The notes under the pieces were generated by a model that ran no database searches, was not told the DNA's origin, and worked only from the letters and a program-made list of their open reading frames with translations. A DNA stretch of 64,000 nucleotides from Kangiella geojedonensis (lineage in GTDB: Bacteria > Pseudomonadota > Gammaproteobacteria > Enterobacterales > Kangiellaceae), in assembly GCF_000981765.1 (NCBI RefSeq), contig NZ_CP010975.1, forward strand, positions 1,116,001-1,180,000, in the 5' to 3' direction. The position numbers and the translations under genes were made by a program. This document shows positions 49,680 to 55,879 of the stretch, piece after piece. Each line of letters starts with the position of its first letter. The first letter of the stretch is position 1.

Positions 49680-50954
49680 CTATAATGCTTCAATAAGTTT
49701 AGAGTGATGGATGACACGGTTACGGCCAGTTTCTTTTGCCTGATATAAGCTTTTGTCAGCCGCTTCAATCATGTTATTTAGGTCATGCTCTATTTTAGAG
49801 CATAGCCCAATACTGACGGTGACTCTTAACGAATGCTCTTCTGCTCGAATAATCGCATCACTAATTTTCTGGCGTAATTTGTCGAAATAGTCGCCTGCGT
49901 GGTCTTCAGACATGCCTGTCATGTACATACAAAACTCTTCGCCACCAAATCGCGCCACAACATCAGATTTGCGAACCGATGATTTGATCAATTGAGCTAC
50001 TTCGCGTAACACTGCATCTCCAACAGAGTGGCCATACTTATCGTTTACGGACTTAAACTTGTCGATATCAATCATGGCGCAAGTGACTGGCGTACCATGT
50101 CTCAGCGCTGATTCATGCATCGCTTCAACAACTTCAAAGAAGTGGCGTCGATTCGGTACGTTAGTTAAGAAGTCATAGCTAGCGGCAGTGGCTAACTCTT
50201 GGTAAGTGTTCAAGCTGTCCAAGTAGGAGTTAATGCGCAAATAAAACTCTTCAGCTAGAAAAGACTGCTTAATAATGAAATCATCGGCGCCATGTTTCAG
50301 GAAGTTGGCGGCCATGATGGTTTGACCGGCGCCTGACATGCCGAGAATCGCTAGTTCTTGCTTGCTATAGATACGGCGTAATCGACGGGTTAGCTCACAA
50401 CCATCCATTCCGGGCATATTATAGTCAGTAATCACCATTTTTACGTCTTGATGGTATTTGACGTAATCTAGGGCTTCTTTGGGGTCATTAAAGTGCATGA
50501 CATCGTATTGATGCACATCGAGAAGAATTTGCAGCATTTTTGCTGAAGTTCGAGAGTCTTCAACAATAACGATCTTATTGTTCGGGTTTCTCTCTAGCCG
50601 AGCAAGAGTATGGATGATCTCATTAATGACGTACTTGTCGTGCTTGATAACATAGTCGACCACCCGAAGTTGCCAAAATTTATTACGAAGTGTAGCCGTA
50701 ATATCGCTAATAAGAACTATGGTGGGAATATCTCTAGAGCGGAAAAGCTCAATCGATTCCCCATCGGTTGCGTCTCTCAATCGATAACTGACTAAACAGG
50801 CGTGAATGGTTTCCCTTTCTAATCTAGCGAGGATAACGTTGGCCTCTTCTAAGCCATTGCAGGTAATAACACCGTAGGGAGTCTGTTCGATGATTTGCTT
50901 TTCTACTAAGGCACAAAAAAACTTGCTGTCATCAACTATGATTATTTTTTTCAC
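49680..50954 (-). CDS. Response regulator with two REC domains and GGDEF output
   Basis: A 424-residue PleD-like diguanylate cyclase. REC1 (1-120) lacks the phosphoacceptor: HACLVSYRLRD has Ser56 where Asp is expected. REC2 (about 127-245) keeps it, Asp177 in MVITDYNMPGMDG. The GGDEF domain (about 255-424) has ASYDFLTNVPNRRHFF, the active site ARFGGEEF (337-341) and an inhibitory-site RxxD (RKSD, 328-331) at the correct spacing of five. It should make c-di-GMP when phosphorylated at REC2 and be product-inhibited. The order REC-REC-GGDEF matches Caulobacter PleD, but there REC1 is the receiver. It is divergent from the collagen-like gene. Confidence 0.93.
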   Translation of the reverse strand: MKKIIIVDDSKFFCALVEKQIIEQTPYGVITCNGLEEANVILARLERETIHACLVSYRLRDATDGESIELFRSRDIPTIVLISDITATLRNKFWQLRVVDYVIKHDKYVINEIIHTLARLERNPNNKIVIVEDSRTSAKMLQILLDVHQYDVMHFNDPKEALDYVKYHQDVKMVITDYNMPGMDGCELTRRLRRIYSKQELAILGMSGAGQTIMAANFLKHGADDFIIKQSFLAEEFYLRINSYLDSLNTYQELATAASYDFLTNVPNRRHFFEVVEAMHESALRHGTPVTCAMIDIDKFKSVNDKYGHSVGDAVLREVAQLIKSSVRKSDVVARFGGEEFCMYMTGMSEDHAGDYFDKLRQKISDAIIRAEEHSLRVTVSIGLCSKIEHDLNNMIEAADKSLYQAKETGRNRVIHHSKLIEAL

Positions 50955-51448: not shown

Positions 51449-51572
51449 TATAAATTCGTACAAAAGTAATGCATTTATGCATTGCAAAAGGGTGGTAAAG
51501 GATTACCAAAAGGTGATGTTTTATTGTGTTTACCAAAAAGCATTTTTACAGGTTTCAGTGGAGGGAGTTCTT

Positions 51573-53876
51573 ATGAACCGACCAACATTATCCCTAGCTC
51601 AGTCTAGTCTAGCTATTGGACTACTGCTAGCCTCACAAATAGGCGCAACTGCGCCTAAGATTCACGAAGTTCAACCATACCCGTCGGATTCGCCGACCAA
51701 TTTAGTTATTTGGGGCGTTGGGTTTGATAGTCCCAGTATTTATTTTGGAACGCACACGGACCCACTTGCTATCAGCGCTGATCAGTCAGCGTGTGTCGAT
51801 ATGGAGTTCAATCCAGCTCCGCCATTAGATCCCACCGACTTTCAGTGTGTGGTTGTTGATTTGCCGTATGTAACCAATGGTACTCCCGCTGTTCCTTCCG
51901 GAGATTACCTGTTAAAGATTGTCGTCGAAGGGGAAATTAATATATGTGGTGACACAAAGCCCACATCGATAACGTTTCTTTATGAGCCCTCGAATTGCTC
52001 TGGAGTAAATTATCAAAGTAATGCTAGTTGCTCAGGTGACATGACAGGAGCAATCGGTGGTACCGATATTTCAGTATTTGGAAAGGATGCTGATAAATGG
52101 TACTTCCCTCCAGTAATTTTCCCTGGTGAACATATAAGTTTTGGTCCAGATCCATCGTCTTATAACGATAACGGTAGGATTTGGGGTAATCAGTTAAACA
52201 TTGAGTTCAGTGAAAACGGTTTAAATCAAACTATAGGCTTACATACCTCTTGTTCAGAACCATTAAATATTGGTGATACCTTCGGTAGCTTCGTACTTGT
52301 CGATTTTGAAGGAAGTGCTGGAGAACCTACTGATCAAATTGACTTATACGATTTAACTATTGGCGCTACTGGCCCAGCAGGTCCAGAAGGCCCTCAAGGC
52401 CCGCAAGGTAAAAAAGGTGATGCTGGTGATCAAGGCCCTACAGGCCCTCAGGGTGATCAAGGTCCACAAGGTAAATTAGGTCCAGCAGGTGCTGATGGTG
52501 AAGATGGTCAAGATGGTGCTCAAGGCCCACAAGGTAAAGTCGGCGCTAAAGGTGATACCGGTGACCAAGGTCCACAAGGTAAAGTCGGCGCTAAAGGGGA
52601 TACCGGTGACCAAGGTCCACAAGGTAAAGTCGGCGCTAAAGGTGATACCGGTGACCAAGGTCCACAAGGTAAAGTCGGCGCTAAAGGGGATACCGGTGAC
52701 CAAGGTCCACAAGGTAAAGTCGGCGCTAAAGGTGATACCGGTGACCAAGGTCCACAAGGTAAAGTCGGCGCTAAAGGGGATACCGGTGACCAAGGTCCAC
52801 AAGGTAAAGTCGGCGCTAAAGGTGATACCGGTGACCAAGGTCCACAAGGTAAAGTCGGCGCTAAAGGTGATACCGGTGACCAAGGTCCACAAGGTAAAGT
52901 CGGCGCTAAAGGGGATACCGGTGACCAAGGTCCACAAGGTAAAGTTGGTGCTAAAGGTGATACCGGTGACCAAGGTCCACAAGGTAAAGTCGGCGCTAAA
53001 GGGGATACCGGTGACCAAGGTCCACAAGGTAAAGTCGGCGCTAAAGGTGATACCGGTGACCAAGGTCCACAAGGTAAAGTCGGCGCTAAAGGGGATACCG
53101 GTGACCAAGGTCCACAAGGTAAAGTTGGTCCAGCGGGTGTTGACGGTCAAGATGGTGCACAGGGGCCACAAGGTAAAATGGGTCTAAAAGGTGACACTGG
53201 AGACCAGGGCCCACAAGGTAAAATTGGTCCAGCTGGTGCTGATGGTCAAGATGGTGCTCAGGGTCCACAAGGTAAAATGGGTCTAAAAGGTGACACTGGT
53301 GATCAAGGTCCTCAGGGCAAAATTGGCCCTCAAGGTAACCAAGGTCCACAAGGTAAAGCTGGTGCTAAAGGCGATACCGGTGATCAAGGTCCTCAAGGTA
53401 AAGTTGGTCCTAAAGGTGACAAAGGGGATAAAGGGGATGCCGGAGATGATGGTATCGGCTCTAACCTAATGTGTTTCAGTACTGACCAAACCATTGGCAC
53501 TCAAGGTAAGTTCATGGGACTCGGTCAACAAGCTGGTGATCATGACAGCGTTGGTGTTATCAGTCCATTTGCCGCTGGTGCAGAAGTCTTAACGCTGGTA
53601 GTGAAAGCTGCTCAAGGTAATAACGCTAACTCTGGTGTCGCGGTCTTGTATCATGATGCCTCAGGGGGCGCGCAAGGCGGTGAACCAGTAGGAACTGCAC
53701 CGAATAATCAGTGTGTTCTTAGTGATACTCCTGTGAAAAGCGTTTGTAAAATCACTTTCAGTACCAATAATGCGCTTGAGTTGTTCGATAGTTTGAGTGT
53801 GTTTATCCAAACTGATGGAGGTAGTTTCGAAGGTGGCTCAGCTTGTATCTTAATCGACCCTGATGGTACTGATTAA
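51573..53876 (+). CDS. Secreted collagen-like repeat protein with IPT/TIG-like N-terminus
   Basis: A 767-residue exported protein. The ATG at 51573 was chosen because GGAGG lies 8 nt upstream and a signal peptide follows (LSLAQSSLAIGLLLASQIGA); the open frame runs 32 codons further up. Residues about 25-80 (KIHEVQPYPSDSPTNLVIWG, VGFDSPSIYFG) resemble an IPT/TIG domain. After a Cys-containing stretch comes a G-X-Y region of about 365 residues (52.36-53.46 kb), mainly the unit GKVGAKGDTGDQGPQ. KGD triplets are known to stabilise bacterial collagen triple helices. A 135-residue C-terminal domain with four Cys follows (SNLMCFSTDQ to CILIDPDGTD) and may trimerise. Probable role is an extracellular fibre or adhesin; no anchor was seen. 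Followed by a terminator. Confidence 0.9.
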   Translation: MNRPTLSLAQSSLAIGLLLASQIGATAPKIHEVQPYPSDSPTNLVIWGVGFDSPSIYFGTHTDPLAISADQSACVDMEFNPAPPLDPTDFQCVVVDLPYVTNGTPAVPSGDYLLKIVVEGEINICGDTKPTSITFLYEPSNCSGVNYQSNASCSGDMTGAIGGTDISVFGKDADKWYFPPVIFPGEHISFGPDPSSYNDNGRIWGNQLNIEFSENGLNQTIGLHTSCSEPLNIGDTFGSFVLVDFEGSAGEPTDQIDLYDLTIGATGPAGPEGPQGPQGKKGDAGDQGPTGPQGDQGPQGKLGPAGADGEDGQDGAQGPQGKVGAKGDTGDQGPQGKVGAKGDTGDQGPQGKVGAKGDTGDQGPQGKVGAKGDTGDQGPQGKVGAKGDTGDQGPQGKVGAKGDTGDQGPQGKVGAKGDTGDQGPQGKVGAKGDTGDQGPQGKVGAKGDTGDQGPQGKVGAKGDTGDQGPQGKVGAKGDTGDQGPQGKVGAKGDTGDQGPQGKVGAKGDTGDQGPQGKVGPAGVDGQDGAQGPQGKMGLKGDTGDQGPQGKIGPAGADGQDGAQGPQGKMGLKGDTGDQGPQGKIGPQGNQGPQGKAGAKGDTGDQGPQGKVGPKGDKGDKGDAGDDGIGSNLMCFSTDQTIGTQGKFMGLGQQAGDHDSVGVISPFAAGAEVLTLVVKAAQGNNANSGVAVLYHDASGGAQGGEPVGTAPNNQCVLSDTPVKSVCKITFSTNNALELFDSLSVFIQTDGGSFEGGSACILIDPDGTD
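52533..53117 (+). repeat. Thirteen tandem 45-bp repeats encoding collagen-like units
   Basis: Thirteen in-frame copies of a 45-bp unit encode GKVGAKGDTGDQGPQ. Copies differ mainly at one synonymous site (GGT or GGG before GATACC), in the order T G T G T G T T G T G T G; the tenth copy also has GTTGGT for GTCGGC. More diverged units flank the array up to about 53460. Confidence 0.95.
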
Positions 53877-53890
53877 TATACAACGAGGAT

Positions 53891-53924
53891 GTAGAAAAGC
53901 CTGGCTTAGCCGGGCTTTTTCTAC
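53891..53924 (+). terminator. Intrinsic terminator after the collagen-like gene
   Basis: A long stem GTAGAAAAGCC.GGC with GCC.GGCTTTTTCTAC surrounds a TTA-type loop and carries T in its 3' arm. It separates the collagen-like gene from the LVIVD gene. Confidence 0.75.
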
Positions 53925-53959
53925 GATTAGTGGTGATGTTTAAGATAGGTGGTATGCAA

Positions 53960-55879
53960 ATGAAGGATTTATTTGTATTTAAAATATTCAAACTTGCGGT
54001 TTTATATTGTGTGCTTGTGGTGACGTGTTGCTATGGTCGATTGGTACTAGCTAACCCATCAGAAGTGCGAGTAAGCGATAACGCTATTAATAACGCCGTC
54101 GAAATGACGGGGCGCTGGAATCAAGGACCTGTATATGCCAGCGTTACCAGTGGTAACTATCTCTACTTCGGTTCCTCAGGAACGGTCAGGGTGGTTGCTG
54201 TTGAAAAGGATGGTGCCGGTAATGCTATCGCATGGGAAGAGGTAGCTTCGATAGAAACAGATGGTGTCGTCAGAGATATGATCATTCGTGACAACTATCT
54301 TTATATCGCTGATGGGTCAGGCTGGTTACGCCTGGTCAATGTTAAGAGTCCAAGTAAACCCAAGCTTAGTGGAGCACTTGAGCTGAACAGTGAAATCAAA
54401 GCCATACATTTTGAAGGTGAGCGTGTGTATATTGCTGCTGGCTGGGATGGGATCCATGTTATCGACGTTTCAAAACCAAATAAGCCCGAGCTTATCAACA
54501 GCGCTCCATCGAAAGGGTACTCATTAGATGTTGTAGTGAAAGACTCTATCGCATATGTGGCAGCAGGCCATGATGCTGGATTACAAATTTCAGACTTGTC
54601 CGAGCCTAATAAGCCGAAAGCCCTAGGCTCGCACCCCATTGCAGGAAGTGCCTCTGGTATTGATACTGATGGTCGTCACGTCTTTGTGGTTAATATGGAC
54701 GATCATGCGCCTAGCCTGAGTATTTTCGATGTTTCCAATAAGGAAAGTCCGACGCAAGTTGCGGCAGAGCCCTTAGAGTATGGCGCTGAAAGAGTTAGGG
54801 TAGAAGGTGATTTAGCCTATGTCGCTGGTGTCGCCAACGATGCTGGATTAATTGTGATAGACGTTTCAGATCCTACAAATCCTAAAAAGTTAGGCGCATG
54901 GTGGGATTCAACATGTTCCGAGTCGGTGACCATTGATAATCAAATTGCTTACTTGGCTCATGGTGATCAGGGCCTCGAAGTATTAGACGTTCGTAAACCT
55001 GATGCACCGACTGTGATTAAACACTTTTCGGCGGCTGGGCACGTTAGAGGGATTGATACTCAAGGAGCTTACGCCTATGTGGCAAACGGTTATCGTGGCT
55101 TGAAAATCGTTGATGTCACTGACAGTGCAAATCCCAAAGATGTTTCCGAGCTTAAAACCTATCGGGCACTGGATGTTGATGTGGCGGGGCCATTTGTTCA
55201 TGTCGCCGATGACTGGGCTGGCTATAAACTGATTGATATCTCAGATCCACAGAACCCAGTTGAAATAGCGGCTCTTGATACGCCTGGTTATGCTGAAGGC
55301 ATCCAAGTGATAGGGCACTACGCCTATATTGCTGATGGTGAAGGCGGACTGCGAATCTTGAATGTGTCTAATCCAGAGCAGCCCGTTGAAGTCGCAGCCG
55401 TGGACTTGGGCGGTTATGCCTATGAAGTCAGTGTGCACAATGACATCGCTTATGTGGCCGCTGGCAAAGCAGGCTTGGTAGCAATTAATGTCAGTATGCC
55501 CACCAGCCCTATCATACTGGATAAATACAAGTTTAATGAGAGAAAATTTGAGGCCAGGGGCGTCGAGCTTAAAGGCAGTCATGCTTATCTTGCTGCAGGT
55601 TACATGGGAATGCTTGTGGTAGATATCACGAGCCCGAACGACTTGAAAAGTGCCGGTATATTCGAGAGTAAAAGGCGCGCTAATAACGTCAGTTTATTTG
55701 GGAATAAAGCTTATTTGATCGACTCTGCATCAGTTAAGGTTCTTGATATCCGCAATCCTGAGGCGCCAGTCTATATTGGCGAACGCGAGTTACCGGCCAA
55801 TGGTGCCCGAATACATGCCAGTGACAACGGCGTGTACGTGGCTGGCATGGAGTCGGGGCTATTAATTTTTGAGCAATAA
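53960..55879 (+). CDS. Secreted LVIVD-repeat beta-propeller protein
   Basis: A 639-residue protein. The ATG at 53960 is preferred because AGGTGG lies 7 nt upstream. A signal peptide (FKLAVLYCVLVVTCCYGRLV) leads to about a dozen repeats of roughly 43 residues such as VYIAAGWDGIHVIDVSKPNK, AYVANGYRGLKIVDVTDSAN and AYIADGEGGLRILNVSNPEQ, which match the LVIVD family and should fold into one or two beta-propellers. No catalytic motif or anchor is seen. It lies directly behind the collagen-like gene, same strand, so a joint extracellular role is possible though a terminator intervenes. Confidence 0.9.
   Translation: MKDLFVFKIFKLAVLYCVLVVTCCYGRLVLANPSEVRVSDNAINNAVEMTGRWNQGPVYASVTSGNYLYFGSSGTVRVVAVEKDGAGNAIAWEEVASIETDGVVRDMIIRDNYLYIADGSGWLRLVNVKSPSKPKLSGALELNSEIKAIHFEGERVYIAAGWDGIHVIDVSKPNKPELINSAPSKGYSLDVVVKDSIAYVAAGHDAGLQISDLSEPNKPKALGSHPIAGSASGIDTDGRHVFVVNMDDHAPSLSIFDVSNKESPTQVAAEPLEYGAERVRVEGDLAYVAGVANDAGLIVIDVSDPTNPKKLGAWWDSTCSESVTIDNQIAYLAHGDQGLEVLDVRKPDAPTVIKHFSAAGHVRGIDTQGAYAYVANGYRGLKIVDVTDSANPKDVSELKTYRALDVDVAGPFVHVADDWAGYKLIDISDPQNPVEIAALDTPGYAEGIQVIGHYAYIADGEGGLRILNVSNPEQPVEVAAVDLGGYAYEVSVHNDIAYVAAGKAGLVAINVSMPTSPIILDKYKFNERKFEARGVELKGSHAYLAAGYMGMLVVDITSPNDLKSAGIFESKRRANNVSLFGNKAYLIDSASVKVLDIRNPEAPVYIGERELPANGARIHASDNGVYVAGMESGLLIFEQ

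Follow-up and report, generated by a model that had tools for sequence, protein, structure and literature searches.

Collagen-like stalk proteins built on a 45-bp repeat are an already known kind of bacterial protein, and the one described here from Kangiella geojedonensis is a new member. Functionally closest to it is Lcl of Legionella pneumophila (lpg2644, VNTR Lpms31), with which it shares a signal sequence, a collagen stalk of 15-residue (45-bp) units and a C-terminal trimeric head, the first and the last of these predicted in Kangiella. Lcl varies in repeat number, with 11 to 19 units reported, and both its binding, which is stronger with more repeats, and biofilm correlate with that number (PMC2639597, PMC6460258, PMC11162425); in PMC6460258 the correlation covers 11-18 units. 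The N-terminus of Lcl is a 30-residue helix, whereas that of the Kangiella protein carries DUF7467, and the C-terminal domain of Lcl has a DUF1566, which Pfam does not find in the Kangiella C-domain. The Kangiella stalk matches the NCBIfam Lcl model NF046116 (5.6e-73), with the best stretch inside the stalk, at 245.9 bits against a cut-off of 500; because of this score and the absence of a DUF1566-type C-domain, the protein falls outside Lcl.

A long Gly-X-Y stalk is also common to the streptococcal proteins Scl1 and SclB, the models of which match over the Kangiella stalk, with their best matches confined there and both below cut-off (199.6 against 400 and 198.4 against 325 bits). These proteins are LPXTG-anchored, whereas the Kangiella protein lacks LPXTG, ends in ILIDPDGTD and belongs to a Gram-negative host. 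Bacillus BclA pairs a collagen stalk with a C-terminal jelly-roll, as the Kangiella protein is predicted to do (9h38; 18% identity over 108 residues at Z 8.3), but no sequence-level relation between the two was found and the Kangiella protein is not a spore protein. The periscope proteins SasG, Rib and Sgo_0707 are likewise surface stalks of near-identical repeats, the number of which changes often (PMC8201768), but theirs are folded domains; the Kangiella stalk is collagen, and its length differs between species. Viewed beside these systems, the Kangiella protein is best read as an exported collagen-like stalk, most likely acting as an adhesin at the surface or in the matrix, with a young array that grew by in-register copying of several units at a time, a reading given a probability of about 0.8.

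The collagen-like gene and its neighbourhood

Within the window, meaning the whole 64-kb stretch of K. geojedonensis DNA analysed, the gene bounds and the collagen-like identity given in the original prediction are both upheld (Table 1). The start at 51573 is preceded by a Shine-Dalgarno-like GGAGGGAG and opens a probable signal peptide, both recognized by eye, and an alternative in-frame ATG lies upstream at 51477. The protein passes the curated cut-off of the Pfam Collagen family (PF01391; 191.7 bits against 27.2), its Gly-X-Y triplets are unbroken, and its DUF7467 match spans residues 129-245. By motif count the stalk carries 20 KGD motifs, of the type that stabilizes bacterial triple helices. 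Two ORFs of 231 and 232 aa that overlap the array were dismissed as by-products of the stop-free 45-bp period.

Table 1. Features of the collagen-like locus of K. geojedonensis, in positions of the window.
Feature	Position	Strand	Extent or content	Basis
Collagen-like protein gene	51573..53876	+	767 aa	ORF; Pfam Collagen 1.5e-57, DUF7467 1.9e-26
Probable signal peptide	51573..51650	+	MNRPTLSLAQSSLAIGLLLASQIGAT	By-eye reading of the sequence
N-terminal beta-rich region	51651..52361	+	DUF7467 over about 51957-52307	Pfam; kept in 13 Kangiella genomes
Collagen stalk	52362..53459	+	122 uninterrupted Gly-X-Y triplets	
Array of thirteen 45-bp units	52524..53108	+	Identical protein, GGT/GGG alternation	Unit reading; Tandem Repeats Finder
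Unit 10 of the array	52929..52973	+	T-class; two further silent changes, giving GTTGGT	Changes also in the non-array unit at 53109
C-terminal domain	53460..53873	+	Predicted jelly-roll, probable trimeric head	AlphaFold2 pLDDT 79, pTM 0.78; TNF/BclA-like jelly-roll matches at Z about 8
Neighbouring LVIVD beta-propeller protein gene	53954..55879	+		Linked to the collagen gene in 7/13 genomes

The predicted triple helix, about 105 nm long if fully folded, would separate the N-terminal DUF7467 part from the probably trimeric C-domain, a predicted jelly-roll of 138 residues. The AlphaFold2 model of the latter, in which residues 29-39 fall under a pLDDT of 50, matches many jelly-rolls at Z 7.4-9.0, among them 4-1BBL and the C-domains of Pgp3 and Bacillus F-BclA (Z 8.3-8.6), values near 8 being common for that fold. 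By sequence, the C-domain has no match in the PDB, where neither end domain has a credible relative, and when scanned alone against Pfam it gives no match at E 0.1. Viral collagen-type proteins were rejected as jelly-roll relatives, the similarity being at the level of the fold only, and the model of the N-terminal part was set aside for its low confidence (pTM 0.53), at which structure matches are meaningless. The role of the protein in adhesion is proposed by analogy with the described stalk proteins.

Directly 3' of the collagen gene stop, at 53895-53919, lies a near-perfect stem-loop (AAAAGCCTGGC-TTA-GCCGGGCTTTT), by eye a likely terminator, which is missing from the terminator scan output. 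The divergent neighbour of the gene is a response regulator bearing two receiver domains and a GGDEF domain (49680-50954), with a best NCBIfam match, CbrR, that is below cut-off; a c-di-GMP link between this regulator and the possible biofilm adhesin is conceivable.

The array, its silent marker and its growth

The array consists of thirteen consecutive 45-bp units, each translating to GPQGKVGAKGDTGDQ, and this identity, which the original prediction had claimed, is borne out by unit-by-unit reading and by Tandem Repeats Finder (score 1147 for 13.4 copies of period 45 with 97% matches). The collagen-like gene contains every one of the four tandem-repeat rows in the window. The units take four DNA forms in total. 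At unit position 30, in a glycine codon that is either GGT or GGG, the array reads T G T G T G T T G T G T G, in agreement with the alternation predicted over most of its length (11 of 12 steps) and with two T-type copies in succession at units 7 and 8. The first codon of unit 1 is GGC, and unit 10 has GTT GGT in place of GTC GGC, by which its first 21 bases equal those of the next non-array unit at 53109; unit 10 may have acquired this difference by a short conversion tract or through two point changes at a later time. The alternation is non-random: of the 1716 possible orders of seven T and six G units, only 13 alternate in 11 or more of the 12 steps (p=0.0076), and permuting the unit order to compare the difference at lag 2 with that at lag 1 gives p=0.0079.

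AAAGGT stands in every equivalent KGD-type unit of G001 and G005, two sister species; GGT is therefore the ancestral and GGG the derived state, which places the spread of GGG after the split from these species. Except for the changes noted above in units 1 and 10, units of the same class are identical, and the synonymous difference within the array amounts to 0.09, falling to 0.04 when the marker site is left out. Set against a dS of 0.5-1.2 between the flanking genes and those of the nearest species (G014), this near-identity supports the recent expansion originally proposed; one recent expansion and continuous homogenization would look the same in the sequence.

Growth of the array would have begun with a single silent GGT-to-GGG change in one 45-bp unit, followed by the copying of multi-unit blocks, even-numbered ones among them, through misaligned recombination or replication slippage in the 45-bp register; the T-T break would stem from a later gain or loss of an odd number of units. 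Because 45 bp encode 15 residues, each copying event keeps the Gly-X-Y frame and alters stalk length only, and this length may also vary within species. Simulations of growth were started from a T-G pair and scored for at least 11 alternations and for the exact observed pattern. Pure single-unit growth is excluded, having yielded the observed alternation 0 times in 200,000 simulations, and hence multi-unit blocks were copied. This upholds one part of the earlier suggestion that a 90-bp pair was the fixed duplication unit and the T-T break a later single-unit event, namely that more than one unit was copied at a time. The other part, 90 bp as the unit, is possible but doubtful: mostly two-unit copying accounts well for the 11 of 12 alternations, giving at least that many in 64% of runs, and a dimer order is found also in G005 and G019, but copying of blocks of any size gives strong alternation (at least 11) in 22% of runs and reproduces the observed pattern exactly at almost the same frequency (0.035 against 0.042, a ratio of about 1.2), and the order varies among species, with a three-unit order in G009. 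With geometrically short blocks, the shares of runs fall to 6.8% for at least 11 alternations and to 0.6% for the exact pattern. The array sequence hardly separates a fixed 90-bp unit from mixed block sizes.

Two further explanations would place the cause of the pattern outside the copying process. The reads behind the assembly could have been near-identical enough for the unit order to be a consensus path through them and for the real copy number to differ; units do differ by single bases, related arrays break contigs in four Kangiella genomes (G003, G007, G015 and G017, with contig ends inside the stalk) and in the distant records L112, L113, L117 and L119, and an array of 585 bp could be miscounted. 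Such an artefact is nevertheless improbable, as the genome assembled into a single closed contig, comparable stalks occur in relatives with one to three contigs, and simple collapse shortens an array and does not generate alternation. Far less probable still is selection on the alternation itself, for example as periodic slow codons pacing triple-helix folding: GGG is a minority glycine codon (15% in neighbouring genes, 5-9% in the collagen-like gene), but it is not especially rare, the alternation is absent from the stalks of relatives, and copying accounts for the pattern without selection. In-register copying of multi-unit blocks is the preferred reading.

The locus across Kangiella

Among 20 Kangiella genomes, this one included and each from a different species, the collagen-like gene is present in 13 (12 of the 19 others), at a locus common to the carriers between the response-regulator/GGDEF gene or HrpA and CysZ-SMC. 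The closest relative, G014 (SMC 98%), and G008 are without the collagen and LVIVD genes, and about 80-100 bp lie between their neighbouring gene matches at this locus. The LVIVD beta-propeller gene, where linked, stands 3' of the collagen gene, and the joint absence of both from G014 and G008 hints at a functional pair.

The complete stalks of K. geojedonensis and eight relatives comprise 73-135 triplets, all of unbroken Gly-X-Y, and the predicted frame-keeping length change is thereby confirmed between species, all nine stalks differing by whole triplets. The 90-bp pattern, in turn, is not conserved across the Kangiella species compared, its higher-order organization being species-specific. 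Dimers of 90 bp are visible in the protein of G005 and G019 (two-unit order, p=0.0001 and p=0.0045, respectively), G009 displays a 144-bp three-unit order (a 45+54+45 trimer), and two-unit order is not significant in any of G001, G006, G013 and G018. By eye, the edges of the array are recognizably common among species and the centres are not. The stalk was rebuilt separately in each species. A further two-unit order comes from a distant MAG (L119:3-450), where GVQGKIGETGAQ and GTQGKIGETGAQ alternate over part of the collagen stalk. A search of viral contigs with the array unit gave no match.

The histories of the end domains seem to differ from those of neighbouring genes. In MAGs carrying labels such as Oleispira and Acidobacteriota, the C-domain, at 45-66% identity, likewise follows repeats of the collagen type, which suggests horizontal spread, with the proviso that MAG labels can be wrong. 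Domain reshuffling is exemplified by L114:25-984, in which a different N-terminal region precedes a short collagen stretch and this C-domain. A phage origin of the end domains was rejected, there being no PHROGs match.

End-domain identity tables are uneven across Kangiella, and about 30 divergence comparisons were made, to which the following p-values belong. Between G006 and G011, dN is 0.020 in SMC, 0.070 in the N-terminal part and 0.240 in the C-domain, with a fourfold divergence for the C-domain of 0.78 against 0.59 (p=0.009). The C-domains of G007, G009 and G015 are closer (dN 0.08-0.11) than their SMC (0.15-0.20), and the collagen-LVIVD stretch of G001 and G005 is less diverged than SMC and HrpA (fourfold 0.37-0.51 against 0.63, p=0.0002). 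In K. geojedonensis, the first half of the N-terminal part is 87-88% identical to that of G001 and G005, and the DUF7467 half is 56-57% identical to these and 61-64% to the distant clade of G006, G011, G013, G019 and G003. At all eight of the clade-separating alignment columns that it resolves (gap columns 122 and 174; substitutions 208, 209, 216, 225, 227 and 249; the trimmed N-terminus left out), K. geojedonensis sides with the distant clade, and at none with its own. Taken together, these values suggest exchange of end domains between lineages. This reading rests on the divergence comparisons, because trees of the short end domains, including AU tests on the C-domain alone, do not reject the species grouping.

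Perhaps, as a tentative extension, the locus acts as a recombining cassette, in which the array would serve both as a stalk of variable length and as a homologous stretch for swapping end domains between Kangiella lineages; if true, changes in stalk length and in head type would not follow the species tree. With the K. geojedonensis protein and its relatives, the bacteria whose collagen stalks are built from repeats now include a free-living marine genus. Thirteen species with one common locus form a natural series on the rebuilding of coding tandem arrays, in which two- and three-unit orders arise separately while array edges and end domains stay recognizable, and the silent marker in units of identical protein makes the copying traceable free of protein selection.
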